A DNA stretch of 64,000 bases from Clostridiaceae bacterium BL-3 (GTDB taxonomy: Bacteria; Bacillota; Clostridia; Clostridiales; Clostridiaceae): contig CADDXC010000001.1 of assembly GCA_902809985.1 (NCBI GenBank), positions 1-64,000 of the forward strand, given 5' to 3'. Positions 55,466-64,000 of the stretch are shown one piece after another (the first letter of the stretch is position 1; each line of letters opens with the position of its first letter). The notes below the pieces were generated by a model. That model saw only the letters and a list, made by a program, of their open reading frames with translations, was not told the DNA's origin and searched no databases. The position numbers were made by a program, and so were the translations under genes.

Positions 55466-55531
55466 ATCGTTGACAAAGTAAGAAAATACACATATAATTG
55501 AGATAACATATAGATAACCTGTATATACATG
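55466..55531 (+). promoter_or_regulatory. Island promoter P1 with GTATATAC operator-like site
   Basis: AAATCG then TTGACA (55470-55475), a 17-bp spacer and TATAAT (55493-55498). CCTGTATATACATG lies at 55518-55531, just past the expected transcription start. Same layout as P2 and P3. Confidence 0.8.
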
Positions 55532-55603: not shown

Positions 55604-56770
55604 ATGGGGAAATGCAGCGGGGAACTACAGCAAGAAAGACAGGAGATTTTTCATAATTTGTATGAAGGAAAAATTCCCAAAAGAGTACCTATTGCAGCTT
55701 GGGTGACAGTAGAATTTGCGATTCAATATGCGGGGCTTGATATTTTGAAAGCACAGTGGAATCCAGGGCTGCTGGAAGATGCATTTAGAAAAGTTGCTGA
55801 TGATTTTTATTCAGATATATTTCCAATACGTGATGCCGTGCGGTTTCCAGTGTTTTATCAAATGTTAGGTGCTAAAAATTTTGTAATGGGATCCAATGGT
55901 TTTTTGCAGCATCCAGAAATATCAGCTATGCATTCTGACGAATATGAAGCTTTTATAAAGTCACCTATGGATTTCATTTTAGAAACTATTCTTCCAAGAA
56001 TATATTCGGCACTTGACACAAATCCAATCAGTCGATCTTTAGTAATGGCAAAGGCTTATAAAGCTCATTGTGATACGGTGGGATTCTTAAATGGTGTGAT
56101 TATTCCCGATCTTGAAAGGGAATATGGAAAATATCAGGCTCCGTTGCAGTCTTATGCTATGACTGCAGTTCCAATGGACTTTATTGCCGATCAGCTTCGA
56201 GGATTTAAAGAAATCAGCCTGGATATACGTAGGAAACCTAAACAGCTTACTGAGGCCTGTGAAGCAGTTTGTGATATTATGTTGAAACGAGGTATACCAG
56301 CACATCCGTCAATTTATAATTATACTTTTATTCCATTACATATGCCGCCTTATATGCGTACAAGGGATTATGAAAAAATTTTTTATCCAACTTTTAAACG
56401 TACCATAGATGGAATTGCTGCAGCGGGTGGAAAATCTTATCTTTTTCTTGAACAAGATTGGTCTAGATTTCTTGATTCACTTTATGATTTACCGGAAAAT
56501 ACGATTTTACGTTTTGAATACGGAGATCCAAAAGAAATAAAGAAGAAATTAGGAGAACGTCATATTATTACAGGACTTTATCCTCTAGGACTATTGCAGA
56601 CCGGTACGAAACAACAGTGTGTTGACAAGGCAAAAGAACTCATTGATATTCTTGCACCGGGAGGAAAATATTTTTTTGATTTTGATAAAAATATTATTAC
56701 TGTCAATAGTGTAAACATTGATAATTTGCATGCTGTTTTAGAGACATACCATACCTATGGTGTATATTGA
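55604..56770 (+). CDS. UroD-type corrinoid methyltransferase I, copy 1
   Basis: 388 aa of the uroporphyrinogen-decarboxylase superfamily. Genes of this sort encode methyltransferase I of O-demethylase systems, moving a methyl group from a donor to a corrinoid protein (family knowledge, MtvB/VdmB). The conserved runs with its two paralogues are FVMGSNGFLQHPEI, PRIYSAL, DQLRGF, IPLHMPPYMRTRDYE, EYGDPKEIKKKLG and DILAPGGKYFF. No HxC...C zinc motif of MtaA/CmuA is seen, so the zinc site must differ. Heme synthesis is unlikely because corrinoid and pterin methyltransferase genes surround it. GGGGAGG precedes the ATG. Donor unknown. Confidence 0.82.
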   Translation: MGKCSGELQQERQEIFHNLYEGKIPKRVPIAAWVTVEFAIQYAGLDILKAQWNPGLLEDAFRKVADDFYSDIFPIRDAVRFPVFYQMLGAKNFVMGSNGFLQHPEISAMHSDEYEAFIKSPMDFILETILPRIYSALDTNPISRSLVMAKAYKAHCDTVGFLNGVIIPDLEREYGKYQAPLQSYAMTAVPMDFIADQLRGFKEISLDIRRKPKQLTEACEAVCDIMLKRGIPAHPSIYNYTFIPLHMPPYMRTRDYEKIFYPTFKRTIDGIAAAGGKSYLFLEQDWSRFLDSLYDLPENTILRFEYGDPKEIKKKLGERHIITGLYPLGLLQTGTKQQCVDKAKELIDILAPGGKYFFDFDKNIITVNSVNIDNLHAVLETYHTYGVY

Positions 56771-56790: not shown

Positions 56791-56946
56791 ATGAACAGCA
56801 AATATTTGCAAGATTGGGAAGAATATAAGAGAATGTGTGAGAAAGTAGGTTATCCAATTCAGGAGAGGGAAGAAATCTACATGAAACCAGTTCTTGAAAG
56901 TTATGATATGGAAATTAGAGATTTTATCATTACTTTATTGCTCTGA
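56791..56946 (+). CDS. Microprotein 1 following UroD-type methyltransferase (51 aa)
   Basis: Unrecognised small gene with a strong ribosome site GAGGAGGAGAG before the ATG, 20 bp after the methyltransferase gene. The protein starts MNSKYLQDWEEYK and ends FIITLLL. Y5, W9, E10, Y12 and K13 are at the same positions in microprotein 2 (59865-60008), and the ending F-x-x-x-L-L-[LM] is shared with it and with the C-terminal tail of the third UroD-type enzyme (61632-62996). No signal peptide or membrane helix beyond the hydrophobic end. Probably a small partner of the methyltransferase (inference). Confidence 0.75.
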   Translation: MNSKYLQDWEEYKRMCEKVGYPIQEREEIYMKPVLESYDMEIRDFIITLLL

Positions 56947-56970
56947 ATAAAATTTTCATATATTGATGAA

Positions 56971-57032
56971 ATCGTTGACAAAACAGAATATCAAGTATAT
57001 AATTTAAGTAATATATAACAAGTATATACAAG
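56971..57032 (+). promoter_or_regulatory. Island promoter P2 with GTATATAC operator-like site
   Basis: GAAATCG then TTGACA (56975-56980), 17-bp spacer, TATAAT (56998-57003), and CAAGTATATACAAG at 57019-57032. Confidence 0.8.
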
Positions 57033-57069
57033 TTGAGGTTTACTAGAAACTAGGAATGGGGGATTTCAA

Positions 57070-57879
57070 GTGATTATTATTGGAGAAAAGATCAATGGAA
57101 CAATTCCAAGCGTAAAAAAAGCTATAGAAAACAAAGATGAAGAATTTATCAGAAATAGGGCAGTTAAACAGGCGGAAGCTGGGGCAGATTACATTGATGT
57201 ATGTGCAAGTACTGCTCCTGAAGTGGAACTTGAAACATTAAAGTGGCTTATGGATATTGTTCAAGATGCCGTAGATAAACCTCTATCTATAGATAGTCCT
57301 AATCCCAGGACCATTGAAGCTGCTTTTAAATATGCTAAAAAACCTGGGATAATAAATTCTGTGTCAAAAGAGGGTGATAAATGCAGCATTATATATCCTA
57401 TGATTAAAGGTACGGAATGGCAGGTAATTGCACTTACCTGTGACAATAAGGGTATTCCATCTGATGTGAAAACCAAGGTGAATATAGCCAGAGATTTAGT
57501 AGAAGAGGCGCAAAAATATGATATAAAGCCAGAGAGAATTCATATAGACCCACTGGTTATGGCTCTTGCTACAGAAAATACTTCTCTGCTTGATTTTATT
57601 GAAGCCATGAAATCTATAAAATCCATATATTCTACTATTAAAATCACATCGGGTTTAAGCAATATTTCATTTGGAATGCCTCTTAGAAAATTTGTGAATC
57701 AAAATTTCTTGACCATTGCCACTTTTATGGGTATGGATTCTGCCATTATGGATCCCTGTAATAGAGAAATTATGACGGCTCTTCTTGCAACTGAAGCACT
57801 TATGGGAAAAGATAAATACTGCAGAAAATTCTCAAATGCCTATAGAAAAAATAAAATTGGACCAGTAAGGGAGAAATAA
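57070..57879 (+). CDS. Pterin-binding methyltransferase (MtvA/AcsE-like methyltransferase II)
   Basis: 269 aa, TIM-barrel of the pterin-binding family, resembling the pterin module of MetH and methyl-THF:corrinoid methyltransferases. IIIGEKINGTIPSV at the start, AGADYIDVCAS, LSIDSPNPRTIEAA, PGIINSVS, ALTCDNKGIP, HIDPLVMALA and ITSGLSNISFGMP mark the folate pocket. It would pass the methyl group from the corrinoid protein to tetrahydrofolate, feeding the Wood-Ljungdahl methyl branch (inference from family and context). GTG start after GGGGGAT. Promoter P2 lies just upstream. Confidence 0.88.
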   Translation: MIIIGEKINGTIPSVKKAIENKDEEFIRNRAVKQAEAGADYIDVCASTAPEVELETLKWLMDIVQDAVDKPLSIDSPNPRTIEAAFKYAKKPGIINSVSKEGDKCSIIYPMIKGTEWQVIALTCDNKGIPSDVKTKVNIARDLVEEAQKYDIKPERIHIDPLVMALATENTSLLDFIEAMKSIKSIYSTIKITSGLSNISFGMPLRKFVNQNFLTIATFMGMDSAIMDPCNREIMTALLATEALMGKDKYCRKFSNAYRKNKIGPVREK

Positions 57880-57940
57880 GTATTTTGAAATATTTTTGGT
57901 ATGTTTAAGTAAAAGAAACTTATTTAGAAAGTATACTATT

Positions 57941-58040
57941 GTCAAAGTTCAGAGTTCAGAATATTTGAGGTTTGATGAATTTTTGATATCGTTCGAACAT
58001 TTTCATTAAGCCATATTTGGTCTTTGTACTTTGAACTTTA
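57941..58040. repeat. Intergenic palindromic repeat, copy B
   Basis: 100 bp between inverted ends CAAAGTTCAGAGTTCAG and GTACTTTGAACTTTA. It separates the methyltransferase II gene from the corrinoid protein gene and could fold as a long hairpin in the transcript. Confidence 0.65.
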
Positions 58041-58060
58041 AAATATAGGGGGATTAGATT

Positions 58061-58696
58061 ATGGATTATAAATTGTTAACACAAGCAGTAGGGGATTTGG
58101 ATGAAGACAAAGTTTTTGAGATGTTGAAAGAATTTGTGAATTCAAATCCGGAAGAGAAAGAGGCTCAAAAAGTTGTAAGTGCATGTCAGGATGGTATGGG
58201 AATAGTAGGTGATCTGTTTGACAAGGGTGAATACTTTGTAGGGGATTTGATTTTTGCAGGAGAACTTCTCACAAATGCCATTGATATCTTAAAACCTGTA
58301 ATAGGTTCAGGAAGTTCCAAGAAAGTGGGAACTATTGTTTTAGGTACGGTACAGGGAGATCTTCATGACATAGGCAAAAATATATTTAAGAGTATGGCAG
58401 AAGCGGCAGGATTTGAGGTATATGATATAGGAATAGATCAGCCTGCATCGGCTTTTATAGACAAAATAAGAGAAGTGAATCCTCAGATTGTGGGAATGAG
58501 TGGAGTGCTTACACTCGCTATTGACTCTATGAAGAATATAGTGGATGAATTTGAAAAGCAAAATGTAAAGGACAAGGTAAAGATAATTATAGGCGGGAAT
58601 CCCGTTACGAAGGAAGCTTGCGAACATGTTAGAGCTGATGCCTTCACCACAAATGCTGCAGAAGGTGTAAAAATTTGTCAAGGGTGGGTGAGTTAA
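58061..58696 (+). CDS. Corrinoid protein (MtbC/MtvC family)
   Basis: 211 aa. Helical cap domain at 1-85, then a Rossmann-like B12 domain with GTVQGDLHDIGKNIF, where H102 is the lower cobalt ligand, followed by MSGVLTLAIDSM and IIIGGNPVT. It carries the methyl group as methyl-Co(III) between methyltransferase I and II. Its stop is one base before the ATG of the next UroD-type gene (TAA-T-ATG), so the two are coupled and probably a cognate pair. Confidence 0.93.
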   Translation: MDYKLLTQAVGDLDEDKVFEMLKEFVNSNPEEKEAQKVVSACQDGMGIVGDLFDKGEYFVGDLIFAGELLTNAIDILKPVIGSGSSKKVGTIVLGTVQGDLHDIGKNIFKSMAEAAGFEVYDIGIDQPASAFIDKIREVNPQIVGMSGVLTLAIDSMKNIVDEFEKQNVKDKVKIIIGGNPVTKEACEHVRADAFTTNAAEGVKICQGWVS

Positions 58697-58697
58697 T

Positions 58698-59852
58698 ATG
58701 GCAGATGTAAAAACTTTGGCGCGAGAGAGAACTCAATTATTTAAGGATTTATTTGATGGTAAGATTCCAAAGAGGGTACCCATAAGTGTAAATTTTCCTC
58801 TTGAATTTTCCATACAGTATGCAGGTGAGGATCTGGCAGAATCACAGTGGGATACTTCCATGCTTGAAGGAATATTTGAAAAAGTATGTGAAAATTTCGT
58901 TTCCGATATACTTCCTGTACAAGCTCTTAGATTTCCACTGTACTACACAATTTTAGGGGCTAGAAATTTTGTAATGAGCTCCAGTGGTTTTTTGCAGCAT
59001 CCAGAGATCAGTGGTCTGGAGGCAGAGGAATATGATGAATTCATTGAATCGCCCTATAATTGTATTATGGAAAAAATACTGCCTAGAATTTACACTGAGT
59101 TAAATACCAATCCAGTTCAAAGATCTCTTGTAATGGCGAAAGCCTTTAAGGCGTTTTATGATGAAGTTAATAATGTGACTGCACTCTATGAGAAACTAAT
59201 TAAAAAATATGGTTATTCTTCCGCGGGAAATACCAACGGATTTGTCGAAGCACCTTTTGATTTCATGTCAGATCAATTGAGGGGATTTAGAGGTATAACA
59301 GGCGACATAAGAAGACGCGCTGATAAGGTAGCAGCAGCTTGTGAGGCTGTAACCCCAATAATGGTAAAGGGTGGAATACCTGCATCGCCTTCAAAATATG
59401 GAGGAACTTTCATTCCACTTCATATGGCGCCATATATTCGTACTAAGGATTTTGAAAAATTATATTGGCCTAGTTTTAAGAGAGAAGTTGAAGAATTGGC
59501 TGCAGCCGGACAGCCGTCTCTGCTGTTTGTTGAAAATGATTGGACACGTTATGTGGACTATCTATATGAACTGCCTGAAAATACTAGAATGTGGTTTGAG
59601 TATGGAGATCCTAAGTTTATAAAAGAGAAGTTAGGGAAAAAACATATTCTTACAGGTTTTTATCCGATTTCCATACTTAAGACAGGAACAAAGCAGCAGT
59701 GTATAGATAAAGCTAAGGAGCTTGTGGATATTCTTGCACCAGGCGGGAAATATATGTTTGGTTTTGACAAGGCCATTATAACTGCAGATAGTGTCAAAAT
59801 TGAAAATCTACAGGCAGTATTGGAATATGTAGCTGAAAATACTGATTATTAG
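58698..59852 (+). CDS. UroD-type corrinoid methyltransferase I, copy 2
   Basis: 384 aa, paralogue of the gene at 55604 (many shared runs: SSSGFLQHPEISG, NPVQRSLVMAKAFKAF, SDQLRGFRG, FIPLHMAPYIRTKDFEK, DILAPGGKYMFGFDKA). It is translationally coupled to the corrinoid protein gene, so it most likely loads methyl groups onto that protein. A 12-residue segment between about 155 and 190 differs in length from copy 1, in the region that may shape the donor pocket. Followed at once by microprotein 2. Confidence 0.85.
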   Translation: MADVKTLARERTQLFKDLFDGKIPKRVPISVNFPLEFSIQYAGEDLAESQWDTSMLEGIFEKVCENFVSDILPVQALRFPLYYTILGARNFVMSSSGFLQHPEISGLEAEEYDEFIESPYNCIMEKILPRIYTELNTNPVQRSLVMAKAFKAFYDEVNNVTALYEKLIKKYGYSSAGNTNGFVEAPFDFMSDQLRGFRGITGDIRRRADKVAAACEAVTPIMVKGGIPASPSKYGGTFIPLHMAPYIRTKDFEKLYWPSFKREVEELAAAGQPSLLFVENDWTRYVDYLYELPENTRMWFEYGDPKFIKEKLGKKHILTGFYPISILKTGTKQQCIDKAKELVDILAPGGKYMFGFDKAIITADSVKIENLQAVLEYVAENTDY

Positions 59853-59864
59853 GGGGAATTTGAT

Positions 59865-60008
59865 ATGGAAACAGAATACTATAAAACATGGGAAAAGTAT
59901 AAGGAAAAACATCCTGAAATCGACGAAAAGCTTGAAGGAAAAATGGCTCCTAAAATGCAGCAATATGAAGAAATGATGTTTATATTTGTTCTCAATTTAT
60001 TGATGTAG
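59865..60008 (+). CDS. Microprotein 2 following UroD-type methyltransferase (47 aa)
   Basis: The ribosome site GGGGGAA overlaps the stop codon of the methyltransferase gene, 12 bp before the ATG. The protein begins METEYYKTWEKYKEKHPEI and ends FVLNLLM. It is a homologue of microprotein 1 by Y5, W9, E10, Y12, K13 and the C-terminal F-x-x-x-L-L-[LM]. A terminator follows, so it is the last gene of the corrinoid protein operon. Charged helix plus hydrophobic end suggests a protein-protein or membrane contact. Confidence 0.78.
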   Translation: METEYYKTWEKYKEKHPEIDEKLEGKMAPKMQQYEEMMFIFVLNLLM

Positions 60009-60038
60009 TAAAAATTCTCAGGGATTTCGTGTTATTAT

Positions 60039-60081
60039 AGCTGCAATTTTCTTACTAAAATTGAAATTGCAGCTTTTTTAA
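60039..60081 (+). terminator. Terminator after microprotein 2
   Basis: AGCTGCAATTT (60039-60049) pairs with AAATTGCAGCT (60064-60074), followed by TTTTTTA. Confidence 0.88.
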
Positions 60082-60156
60082 TGTGAGTTCTATAAAAAAG
60101 ACAGGATTGTTCTGATGTTTTCTAATTATAAATTAAAGAGGGGATGTAGAGTTAAT

Positions 60157-61551
60157 ATGAATAATCAAGTGTCTAAGTCCAGAAGAATTACCCAAAAGAT
60201 AAAGGTATGGTTTGGCATTGGTGATGCTGGATTTTCTTTTATGACTACTGTTGAAACGGCATACTTTCCTGCCTTCCTCACAAATTATGCACTTTTATCA
60301 AATGCATATGTTATTTTAATAACATCAATTACAGGGGCTGTTGATATCGTCAGTTCTTTAATTGCAGGTATAGTTTTAGATAAAACTAATTTTAAATGGG
60401 GAAAGTATAGATCCTGGTTAGTTATAGGACCACCGGCGGTAATAATATTATTCATGCTTCAATTTTCGAAAATAGGTTCTCCATCTGTAGCGGCAGTACT
60501 GATATGTACAGGTTTTATTTTAAGTCACTTTATTTGGAATATGTCCTGGACTGCAAATATGTCACTGGTACCGATTTTAACTGATGATCCTAAAGAAAGA
60601 GCTTTTTTATCGGGGAGAAGGGCAGCGGGTTCAAATCTTGGTAAAGTAATTGCATCCTATGCAACCCTTCCCGTTGTAACTGCTATTGCTGCTTTTTTCC
60701 CGAAAGGTTCCAGCATGGCTTTTACTATTACAGCAGGCCTGTTTGCTTTTATCATGGGTATCACGTATTATATACATTTTATCATATCGAAAGGTTATGA
60801 AGATGTTAAAGTAAATATCAAAACTTCAGGTAGTGTAGTAAGTACCGATAAAAAAAGAAACCCATCTTTAGCTGACATGTTTAAAGCGATATTTTTAAAT
60901 AAACCATTGTTGATTTTTGTATTATCAGATTTTTGCAAACTTATAGGTTATTACTTGTTAATGGCAGCAGCTTTTTATTATTTCAAATATGTGACCAATA
61001 GTATTTCTTTACAGCCAATATTTTTATTGGTATTTAATATTGCGGGTCTATTGGGAGCTCTATTTGCAAAAAACATAGTAGCGAGAATTGGAACAAAAAT
61101 GTCCTATATCGTAGGAGTTAGTGGATATATTATATCTATTGTAGTAGCGTATTTATTTGCAGAAAATCCAGTGGCAGTAATTGCCATAATGGGTGTGGGT
61201 CAAGTACTGTTTGGAATATCATACGGACTTACATCTTCATTTTATTCAAATGGGGCCACATATAGTCAATGGAAAACTGGAGCAGATACTAAAGGAGTCA
61301 TTATGGCATTCTCATCATTTTCTATTAAAGTAAGTATATTGGTTAGAGGTGTTATATTAACAGCTGGATTAGCCGTATTAGATTTTAATGCAAATATGAC
61401 AAATGTTTTGCCAGAGGTCATATCTGGATTCAAAGTTATATTTTTTGGAGCACCGTTTATATTTGGTCTAGTAGCTTTAATTGCAATTTTATTCTATAAT
61501 CTTCCTGATGGTAAAGTAAAGGAAATGGAAAATGAAATAGCAGCAAGATAA
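60157..61551 (+). CDS. GPH-family (MelB-like) cation symporter
   Basis: About 464 aa, twelve helices. N-terminal KVWFGIGDAGFSFMTTVETA and DIVSSLIAGIVLDKTNFKWGKYRSW match the glycoside-pentoside-hexuronide:cation family, with the conserved aspartates in the second helix pair. In this island it probably imports the methylated substrate of the methyltransferases, perhaps a glycoside or an aromatic methyl ether (inference). The frame extends to ATG 60115 with AGGA before it; ATG 60157 fits the family start better. Confidence 0.82.
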   Translation: MNNQVSKSRRITQKIKVWFGIGDAGFSFMTTVETAYFPAFLTNYALLSNAYVILITSITGAVDIVSSLIAGIVLDKTNFKWGKYRSWLVIGPPAVIILFMLQFSKIGSPSVAAVLICTGFILSHFIWNMSWTANMSLVPILTDDPKERAFLSGRRAAGSNLGKVIASYATLPVVTAIAAFFPKGSSMAFTITAGLFAFIMGITYYIHFIISKGYEDVKVNIKTSGSVVSTDKKRNPSLADMFKAIFLNKPLLIFVLSDFCKLIGYYLLMAAAFYYFKYVTNSISLQPIFLLVFNIAGLLGALFAKNIVARIGTKMSYIVGVSGYIISIVVAYLFAENPVAVIAIMGVGQVLFGISYGLTSSFYSNGATYSQWKTGADTKGVIMAFSSFSIKVSILVRGVILTAGLAVLDFNANMTNVLPEVISGFKVIFFGAPFIFGLVALIAILFYNLPDGKVKEMENEIAAR

Positions 61552-61553
61552 AG

Positions 61554-61577
61554 TCCAGCGTCTTAAATGACGCTGGA
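61554..61577 (+). terminator. Hairpin after the transporter gene
   Basis: TCCAGCGTC and GACGCTGGA form a perfect 9-bp stem with a 6-nt loop; only a weak A/T tail follows. Confidence 0.6.
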
Positions 61578-61631
61578 AATAAATATCTCTTATGGACTTA
61601 GAACAAATTAATTATTCTAAGAGAGTTATGG

Positions 61632-62996
61632 CTATAGTAAAAGAAAAATGAGAAATTGAAAAATTTTATCTTGAAATACAGACATTTTGTCTATACCTGC
61701 TTCTGTTATTTGGGGATTTTCTGCGATCATGGTTTTTTTTGTCTGGTAGTATTTACTTTTAATATCTCTACTTTTGGAAGCAGTGTAATCTGCTTTGTTA
61801 AATGCTAAACCAGCTGTTTTTCCTATATTATCCTTATATACTCCATAATCTCTCACTGTTTCTGTTACTGCATTGAAATTTTCAATAACTACATCGCCTA
61901 TTAAGGCACTCTTATCAAGGCCAAAAATGTATTTTCCACCTGGGGCTAGAATGTCAATATATTTTTTAGCTAGATCAATACATTCCTGTTTTGTATGTGA
62001 TTTTAAATACGAAATAGGATATAAACCAGTGATTATATGTTTTTTCCCAAGCTTGTCTTTAATTAGTTTAGGATCGCCGTATTCAAACTGAATGTACGTA
62101 TTCGTTGGGAGATCTTGTAAATAATCTAAGTATCTATCCCAGTTATCTTCACAGAAAATTCTGCAGTGAATTCCCATAGAAGCGTATTCATCAAGAAGTT
62201 TCTTAAAACTTGGCCACCAGTACTTGGCAAAATATTTTTCTCTCATGAAGGTTGGCATATGAAGTGGAAGAAAAACATGACCATAATCTGATATTACAGA
62301 AGGCATTCCTTTTTTCAACACAATTGGGTATAAAGCTTCACATGCATCTGCAACTTTTTGAGGCATTCTTCGAATATCCAGTGATATTCCTTTAAAACTT
62401 CGAAGTTGATCTGCTAGAAAATCATAAGGTGCTTCAGTAAATCCACTGGACCCAGAGGGAGGACCTATATAATATCCATACTTTTCAATCATTTTTTTAA
62501 CAATTGATCCAGTTATATTGTTGTCGTTATTGAAACCTAGAAATGCTTTCATAAAATTAGTCATCATATTTATCGGATCTTTTAAATTCAGAGCTTTATA
62601 TTGCCTGGGAATTACTTTTTCCATAATACAATCTAAGGGCCTTTCTATCAAATAATCGTATTCATCTTCAAACATGCCGATTACTTCTGGATGTTGGAAA
62701 AAACCATTGGATCCCATGACGAAAGATTGGGATTTTAATGTCTGATAATAGGATGGATATCTTAATGCTGACCCCATAGGTACTATATCTGAATATATTA
62801 GAGGTACGATATTTTCAACAGCTTTTTCAATTATACTTGGATTCCATTGTGCTTCAATTAAATCTAAGCCACCTAATTTTGCTAATGTTTCAAAATTAAA
62901 TGATACATTGATTGGAACTCTTTTTGGAATCTTATTGTCAAACACATCAATAAAATTTTGTGTTTTTTCTGCCTGTATTGATTTTATATTACTCAT
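61632..62996 (-). CDS. UroD-type corrinoid methyltransferase I, copy 3, with microprotein-like C-terminal tail
   Basis: 454 aa. Residues 1-388 match copies 1 and 2 (FVMGSNGFFQHPEV, DQLRSFKGISLDIRR, LPLHMPTFMREKYF, EYGDPKLIKDKLGKKHIITG, DILAPGGKYIFG). A 66-residue tail follows; its last about 44 residues (from 411) contain SKYYQT, NPQI, DKM and end FLIFLLL, resembling the separate microproteins. So the small protein is fused to the enzyme here. It reads leftward from promoter P3. No corrinoid protein is in its operon; the rightward one at 63357 is divergent and may be its partner. Confidence 0.85.
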   Translation of the reverse strand: MSNIKSIQAEKTQNFIDVFDNKIPKRVPINVSFNFETLAKLGGLDLIEAQWNPSIIEKAVENIVPLIYSDIVPMGSALRYPSYYQTLKSQSFVMGSNGFFQHPEVIGMFEDEYDYLIERPLDCIMEKVIPRQYKALNLKDPINMMTNFMKAFLGFNNDNNITGSIVKKMIEKYGYYIGPPSGSSGFTEAPYDFLADQLRSFKGISLDIRRMPQKVADACEALYPIVLKKGMPSVISDYGHVFLPLHMPTFMREKYFAKYWWPSFKKLLDEYASMGIHCRIFCEDNWDRYLDYLQDLPTNTYIQFEYGDPKLIKDKLGKKHIITGLYPISYLKSHTKQECIDLAKKYIDILAPGGKYIFGLDKSALIGDVVIENFNAVTETVRDYGVYKDNIGKTAGLAFNKADYTASKSRDIKSKYYQTKKTMIAENPQITEAGIDKMSVFQDKIFQFLIFLLL

Positions 62997-63096: not shown

Positions 63097-63160
63097 CTTG
63101 TATATACTAGTTATTTATAAGTTTATTATACATACGCATCTTTAATTTGTCAACGATTTC
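63097..63160 (-). promoter_or_regulatory. Island promoter P3 with GTATATAC operator-like site
   Basis: Read on the minus strand: GAAATCG, TTGACA (63153-63148), 17-bp spacer, TATAAT (63130-63125), then CTAGTATATACAAG (63110-63097). Drives UroD-type copy 3. Confidence 0.8.
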
Positions 63161-63356: not shown

Positions 63357-64000
63357 ATGCATAATTTAAGTGAATTGAAAAAATTGATCATAAAATATGT
63401 GGAACAGTTAGATGAAGAAAAGGTAATAAATCTGGCAGATGAAGCTTTGGATAAGGGAATGGATCCTATAACCTTGCTGGAAACTGTCAATACAGGTATG
63501 GAGAAAGTTGGGAAATTATACGAAAATAAAGATTACTATATAGCGGATTTAATACTTTCAGGACTTATTTTCAGAAATATCTTAGAACTGGATAAGATGA
63601 AAAAGTATTTTCTTCAAAATAAGGATAAGGGATTGGGAAAAGTAGTTTTAGGGACAGTAAAAGGTGATATTCATGATATTGGAAAGGATATTTTTAAAGG
63701 TATGCTGGAAGCTAATGGATTTGAGGTAATCGATTTAGGTGTAGATGTTCCAAAAGAAGAATTTGTGAAAGCAGTTAAGGAGAACAAACCGGATATCGTA
63801 GCTATGAGTGCGGCACTTACAAATACAATAGAAACAATGAGGGATGTGGTAAAGGCTTTTTTAAAAGCTGGGATAAGGGATAAAGTGAAGGTTATTGCAG
63901 GTGCCAATCATATGAATGCAGATATAAGTAAGTATATTGGAGCAGATGATTTTTCCAATGAGGCTTCTACTGGGACTAAAATATGTTTGAAATGGATGAA
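63357..64000 (+). CDS. Second corrinoid protein, 3' end cut by window
   Basis: ATG with GGAGG before it; 214 codons are visible and the frame is still open at the window end. Helical cap (about 1-85) then B12 domain with GTVKGDIHDIGKDIFKGM (cobalt-binding histidine), LGVDVPKEEFV and AMSAALTNT. Homologous to the protein at 58061. Length suggests it is almost complete. Divergent from UroD-type copy 3 and likely part of a further methyltransferase operon beyond the window. Confidence 0.92.
   Translation, partial: MHNLSELKKLIIKYVEQLDEEKVINLADEALDKGMDPITLLETVNTGMEKVGKLYENKDYYIADLILSGLIFRNILELDKMKKYFLQNKDKGLGKVVLGTVKGDIHDIGKDIFKGMLEANGFEVIDLGVDVPKEEFVKAVKENKPDIVAMSAALTNTIETMRDVVKAFLKAGIRDKVKVIAGANHMNADISKYIGADDFSNEASTGTKICLKWM

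Follow-up and report, generated by a model that had tools for sequence, protein, structure and literature searches.

We analysed positions 1 to 64,000 (forward strand) of contig CADDXC010000001.1 from Clostridiaceae bacterium BL-3 (assembly GCA_902809985.1), a 64,000-nucleotide stretch that we call the window and in which three genes encode UroD-type corrinoid methyltransferases of the methyltransferase I (MT-I) kind. Two of these genes are followed by a separate gene for a very small protein, while the third encodes a longer enzyme with a small domain fused at its C-terminus. These genes, and those for the corrinoid protein and for a methyltransferase II (MT-II) that lie among them, are as follows.

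55604..56770, + strand: UroD-type corrinoid methyltransferase A (MT-I), 388 residues, free small protein behind; PF01208 24.7 bits against a cut-off of 23.9
56791..56946, + strand: free small protein A, 51 residues; ATG 20 nucleotides past the stop of the enzyme A gene, AGGAGG upstream
57070..57879, + strand: methyltetrahydrofolate:corrinoid methyltransferase (MT-II like); NF005719 / PRK07535 370.5 bits, cut-off 259
58061..58696, + strand: corrinoid protein; B12-binding PF02310 and PF02607 above cut-off
58698..59852, + strand: UroD-type corrinoid methyltransferase B (MT-I), 384 residues, free small protein behind; family alignment matches CdmB
59865..60008, + strand: free small protein B, 47 residues; ATG 12 nucleotides past the stop of the enzyme B gene, AGGGGG upstream
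61632..62996, - strand: UroD-type corrinoid methyltransferase C (MT-I), 454 residues, small domain fused at the C-terminus
61635..61760, - strand: fused small-domain copy, residues 413-454 of enzyme C, after a linker; profile E 3.9e-17, with a profile that includes this copy

A first-pass annotation of this DNA had pointed to the two small open reading frames (ORFs) of 51 and 47 codons directly behind the enzyme genes, and both are indeed there, each with a ribosome site. As it had also described, small proteins A and B have Y5, W9, E10, Y12 and K13 in common and end in FIITLLL and FVLNLLM, and the tail of enzyme C contains SKYYQT and closes with FLIFLLL; of the five shared residues, this tail keeps Y5 only. 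Enzyme C had been called 66 residues longer than its paralogues, which is right for the 388-residue one, the difference from the 384-residue one being 70. Within its small domain, S414 and Y416 are invariant across 48 aligned fused enzymes. Enzymes A and B share 57% identity, and small protein A is found with an E of 1.6e-19 for its genome by a 17-member profile that includes it.

When tested for PF01208 with hmmscan, enzyme A lay just above the cut-off and enzymes B and C gave no URO-D match. The family alignment of enzyme B with CdmB (PDB 9rui) scored 128 bits (E 3.8e-36). CdmB, the chloromethane:corrinoid methyltransferase of Acetobacterium dehalogenans (PDB 9rui, 9rul, 9ruo), is likewise an MT-I enzyme and is placed in the UroD superfamily (PMC13222342); the placement of the window enzymes in this superfamily rests on their homology to CdmB. 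MT-I genes are expected to cluster with those for a corrinoid protein and an MT-II, and both are present here (58061-58696 and 57070-57879). With TIGR02370 the corrinoid protein reaches 144.7 bits, below the cut-off of 215.3. The window enzymes may act as O-demethylases.

Pairing of enzymes and small proteins

Using enzyme B as the query, we found 17 relatives in four of 194 genomes of the order, and all of them had the small domain, eight as a free gene directly downstream and nine as a C-terminal tail. The genome of the window holds five such relatives, three with free and two with fused copies. Among 398 genomes of the phylum, 26 matched the small-domain profile, with at least three of the matches being weak and probably due to chance. 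The scan of species genomes covered the best 78 loci of 270 relatives. In the first census, comprising 141 unique enzyme cores, the domain was kept in all 128 enzymes scoring above 400 bits (66 free, 58 fused by profile and 4 tails recognised by eye), and the same was true for the 28 enzymes above 400 bits from added genomes. We then pooled 230 unique cores under a broader profile, counting as free any ORF of 34-66 residues with a ribosome site within 75 nucleotides, or any profile match, and as fused any tail of at least 40 residues. A small protein accompanied 173 of 173 enzymes at 450 bits or more and 35 of 35 evaluable ones at 300-450 bits, one further enzyme being cut off; lower scores were mixed. 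Altogether, the 208 evaluable enzymes of at least 300 bits all had either a small downstream ORF (123) or a tail (85), while a similar ORF stood behind only 24 of 830 other genes of at least 200 residues in the same loci. As the sample was picked by similarity to the window enzymes and CdmB, these figures describe that branch and not all UroD proteins. The pattern seen in the window recurs far beyond it.

Below 300 bits, and hence outside the 208, two calls of the pooled rule were later changed: L209, called free through an MT-II-like remnant, is treated as having none, and L169, called none, has a copy 88 nucleotides away and is treated as free. L191 and L194, whose DNA ends 201 nucleotides downstream, are treated as having none. 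The first census had rated 13 low-scoring enzymes as bare. Inspecting the downstream DNA of 22 low-scoring enzymes from the two censuses revealed small ORFs of other sequence in 11 of these 13, and none in L098 and L035. Regarding small proteins without an enzyme, no convincing case emerged from the first census: L027 and L087 are both cut by locus ends, L079 sits behind a broken enzyme C-terminus, one match in L030 is marginal (E 0.049), and L126-L128 are weak matches in long frames (E 8e-4 to 7e-3) with no enzyme core there, which we took as chance.

In the gut bacterium Eubacterium callanderi, a CdmB segment used as the query finds 30 UroD relatives, of which 29 have a small protein of their own (23 free and 6 as a tail), not all of them recognised by the main profile. 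The sole exception is the CdmB orthologue itself (L199). Likewise, a genome of the genus Acetobacterium with CdmB at 100% identity has six such enzymes, five with a small protein and CdmB without. The 30 relatives of CdmB in E. callanderi, taken at E <= 1e-8 (L199, L205, L210, L215, L219, L223, L227 and L229-L246), stand against six putative O-demethylation systems cited for the species in a 2026 paper (PMC12915777).

The free copies are independent genes under strong purifying selection. All 66 free copies of the first census have a start codon with a ribosome-site match of at least 4 nucleotides (starts having been picked partly by this site), at a gap of 11-65 nucleotides from the enzyme gene, and they occupy all three frames relative to it (17, 17 and 32 copies). 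Own starts and the use of all three frames rule out stop-codon readthrough or a frameshift as their origin. In the main family, the proportion of nonsynonymous differences (pN) was below that of synonymous ones (pS) in all 328 compared pairs of related free copies, each pair being of equal length and at least 60% identity, the pairs not being independent of each other. The same held for the 12 pairs computed in divergent groups, 2 more being skipped for unequal length, and small protein B gave a pS of 0.54 and 0.61 and a pN of 0.11 against its two nearest relatives. Lack of conservation in relatives and lack of coding constraint were the two outcomes that the first-pass annotation had named as speaking against its proposal, and neither is what we observed.

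Free copies (n=126) have a median length of 47 residues and a median net charge of -5, with 118 of them negative. Averaged over its final ten residues, the chain is hydrophobic in 124 of the 126 free copies and in 82 of 85 tails, and 203 of 253 copies end no more than one residue (net) away from the profile end. Small proteins diverge faster than their enzymes, showing a median identity of 40% where the cores share 50-60%. They are likely to form one ancient family; both window copies served to build the main family.

No curated family covers them. Small proteins A and B had no Pfam match with hmmscan, and in NCBIfam protein B had none and protein A a single weak one (oxalate oxidoreductase delta, E 0.028, 13.6 bits against 230). 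None of 17 main-family members rose above the cut-off in either database. Their best matches, a phage tape-measure model in Pfam (E 0.0055, 2 members) and a biotin carboxylase model in NCBIfam (E 0.0063, 1 member), are unrelated and not common to the family. Seven divergent copies gave only one weak Pfam match (DUF3144, E 0.078, 13.8 bits against 25) and none in NCBIfam, and the best PDB match of the profile of 17 copies had an E of 0.36.

Repeated joining of two genes at the same end is a classic sign of two parts that work together. In a tree of 227 rows, the fused enzymes fall into groups of 47, 30, 6 and 1 among the free ones, enzyme C belongs to the clade of 47 (support 100), and well-supported branches demand at least three changes of the fused label. 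A thinned tree of 139 rows, to which three distant fused enzymes (L345, L346 and L349) were added, raises this minimum to four changes between the free and the fused state. The two trees are quick ones with long branches and a single support value, in which individual forks may be wrong, and the changes may be joins or splits. Given the outgroup root used, the free state looks ancestral and the fusions separate. The first-pass annotation had read the pattern of two free copies and one fused as the mark of a subunit, and this gains support from the presence of one small protein per enzyme gene and from the repeated joining at the same enzyme end.

The three distant enzymes carry another type of fused tail (PWE...WIWQWVL or similar), which resembles free proteins ending in FIWFWVQR or similar (e.g. 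L339) and apparently reflects a separate joining in another clade. Besides, at L193 (1434-2535) the enzyme frame is broken early and the small domain lies in another frame about 197 nucleotides on; this free copy inside a fused clade is probably a frameshift in the gene or the assembly.

An internal insertion and the small protein are mutually exclusive

CdmB ends at the same tyrosine as the cores that bear a small protein, but it differs from them in having no small ORF behind it, either within 300 nucleotides of the E. callanderi orthologue L199 or within about 100 nucleotides of the 100% match L249. It also differs in the core region 55-145, which spans 125 residues in L199 and 91-99 residues in 213 bearers. 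Seven non-bearers of the same branch have 118-126 residues in this region, two of them being readable for only 201 nucleotides downstream. Six distant outgroup proteins, with 84-93 residues, have neither the insertion nor the small protein. The window enzymes belong to the bearers without the insertion.

Having set down this exclusion rule as a prediction, we retrieved 60 loci using two queries of the insertion class (30 loci each, from longer lists), giving 59 rows, 57 of them new (L339 repeats L167 and L351 repeats L169). All 21 rows with at most 99 residues had a small protein (19 of 19 among the new rows): 17 were free and 3 fused by the rule, and the last, L333, has a copy that starts 174 nucleotides away and was found only on a second, longer look. 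Of the 38 rows with at least 118 residues, 36 had none, one was cut off and one (L295) showed a chance ORF running through masked bases, so that the 37 evaluable insertion-class enzymes have no credible small protein. The same 300-nucleotide look detected any small ORF at all in 4 of 45 insertion-class enzymes (these 38 and the first seven), against 91 of 843 control genes, and none of the four ORFs was family-like by eye. The insertion lies at positions 61-80 in 9 of the 38 rows and at 121-140 in 29. According to these results, the small protein and an internal insertion of 25-30 residues exclude each other.

In 79 of the 398 phylum genomes, an insertion-class query finds a UroD relative with E <= 1e-20, so this enzyme branch is common in the phylum.

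Proposed role of the small protein

We consider it probable that the small proteins are dedicated structural subunits of UroD-type MT-I enzymes, one for each enzyme. The dimer contact of CdmB and its hydrophobic, tunnelled core are both built from extensions that lie between the first three strands (PMC13222342). Given this role and the mutual exclusion, a simple reading is that the small protein would provide this hydrophobic element in trans. Each small protein, a mostly acidic chain of about 40-60 residues whose C-terminal end is hydrophobic, has its own start directly behind its enzyme and would bind that enzyme. The contact would be made by its C-terminal segment, probably a helix, resting on the N-terminal half of the barrel. 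There it would fill the place of the internal hydrophobic extension of CdmB-like enzymes and contribute to the substrate channel, the dimer face or both, and in several lineages the two genes would have been joined into one chain. More ambitiously, and only as a tentative suggestion that we regard as rather doubtful, the O-demethylase branch could consist of two-part enzymes, in which a conserved barrel is combined with a rapidly diverging small subunit. By forming the substrate channel, this subunit would help to determine the methylated compound that the enzyme accepts; it would have been swapped in trans for the internal hydrophobic insertion of the CdmB class, and fused to the barrel several times.

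Covariation was computed from 218 pairs (effective number about 117). The top inter-protein pair, enzyme 149 with small-protein 41, had a z of 9.8 (rank 6 of 86736 pairs), while four re-pairings with relatives gave z values of at most 5.1 and two full shuffles of at most 4.3. A phylogenetic test on independent pairs yielded 2 changes in the same direction and 0 opposite, too few to reach significance. As the signal comes mainly from fused enzymes, we set covariation aside as proof of contact.

Several observations weigh against the proposed subunit role. The 149/41 signal is an A/F to S/Y exchange, mostly in fused enzymes, and in free enzymes alone the pair falls to a z of 2.9 (rank 295 of 16632). 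Of the top 60 pairs, 15 fall in the region 55-145 chosen beforehand, as expected from its share of columns, with no enrichment. The exclusion between insertion and small protein is a strong pattern with few independent events, close to a contrast between clades: the class changed once in the 227-row tree or twice in the 139-row tree, with weak support at one place. Regarding ancestry, 20 of 37 divergent copies beat all 200 of their own shuffles against the main profile and 17 do not, and these 17 are counted in the census by their size, position and coding constraint. Activity has reportedly been seen for MT-I enzymes from Acetobacterium and Moorella produced on their own; should these enzymes be bearers, they can work to some extent without the small protein. 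CdmB expressed without a small partner is active too (PMC13222342), but it belongs to the insertion class.

The first-pass annotation had left the choice between a subunit and a chaperone. A folding chaperone or assembly factor, helping the enzyme to fold or dimerise and then leaving, would suit a gene directly behind that of the enzyme and a small, mostly acidic protein with one hydrophobic end. Because 29 paralogues in one genome (of 30) each own a copy and tails are kept in 85 enzymes, which fits a stoichiometric part better than a reusable helper, we favour a subunit and find a chaperone unlikely; a shared one is disfavoured by the same one copy per paralogue. We would likewise not expect a docking or gating module for the corrinoid protein, MT-II or the activating enzyme, placed outside the enzyme's own fold. 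The fixed, hydrophobic C-terminal end and the adjoining corrinoid protein and MT-II genes in the window speak for such a module, but divergence faster than that of the enzyme is unlike a shared docking face, and CdmB works with its corrinoid protein without any small protein (PMC13222342).

A corrinoid methyltransferase with small proteins acting on it is known from Methanosarcina, where MtrI and MtrR act on the Mtr complex and the titles of the reports concern an oxygen-stress response and H2-dependent modulation (PMC12774963, PMC13370731). The Mtr enzyme is a different, membrane-bound one. A protein encoded directly behind its enzyme and frequently fused to it could hardly be supplied on demand, so a regulatory protein that inhibits or tunes the methyltransferase appears very improbable. 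Finally, such short and divergent ORFs might be chance frames or remnants without function, an idea that pN below pS in every one of the 328 pairs and the presence of a small protein with all 208 evaluable enzymes, as against 24 of 830 control genes, leave with practically no credit.

Descriptions of O-demethylation systems name four proteins, namely an MT-I, a corrinoid protein, an MT-II and an activating enzyme (PMC12915777). The MT-I enzymes OdmB, VdmB, MtvB and MtoB of methoxyaromatic O-demethylases are relatives of CdmB in the UroD superfamily (PMC13222342). OdmB and VdmB of A. dehalogenans would be expected among the five enzymes with a small protein in the genome that has CdmB at 100% identity, and MtoB, at 47-48 kDa (PMC8630106), would have the size of the insertion class. 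The first-pass annotation knew of no description of such a subunit. Our literature search found no paper on one either, with many subscription papers, older ones included, outside its scope, and the passages covered in PMC13222342, PMC10418091, PMC9768040, PMC12915777, PMC10989822 and PMC8630106 do not mention any. We take the small protein to be a new component of a known type of enzyme system.

Enzymes of the MT-I type make methylated compounds available as methyl sources to acetogens and other anaerobes. Should full activity or specificity depend on an overlooked fifth component, experiments on the large protein by itself may have failed to detect substrates or given rates that are too low, and the small protein would have to be included when engineering the demethylation of lignin or drugs. 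The system also lends itself to testing how part of the pocket of a barrel enzyme can be provided by a separate small protein, a tail or an internal insertion.

Neighbouring features and promoters

The remaining features of the locus are listed below.

60039..60079, + strand: likely intrinsic terminator, 12-bp stem followed by a T run, directly 3' of small protein B
60115..61551, + strand: GPH/MFS_2 transporter adjoining the cluster; PF13347 231.9 bits
55470..55498, + strand: perfect TTGACA-N17-TATAAT promoter of enzyme A; GTATATAC at 55521
56975..57003, + strand: perfect TTGACA-N17-TATAAT promoter ahead of the MT-II, corrinoid protein and enzyme B genes; GTATATAC at 57022
63125..63153, - strand: perfect TTGACA-N17-TATAAT promoter of enzyme C; GTATATAC at 63100

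An 82-nucleotide stretch in the terminator region folds at -19 kcal/mol (z -3.34), and none of 200 shuffles folds as well; the hairpin at 60039..60079 is absent from the output of a consensus terminator scan. If the terminator holds, small protein B is likely the last gene of its operon. We observed three perfect promoters where 0.02 are expected in the window, each with GTATATAC 17-22 nucleotides downstream, and two further copies of this sequence at 2209 and 11457. Promoter and GTATATAC together span 55470-55528, 56975-57030 and 63099-63153. Its placement suggests that GTATATAC is likely an operator shared by the three methyltransferase units, in which case the enzyme A unit, the MT-II/corrinoid/enzyme B unit and the enzyme C unit would probably be regulated jointly. 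Past enzyme C, a second corrinoid protein gene seems, by eye, to begin on the + strand (63358-64000) and to run off the window end.

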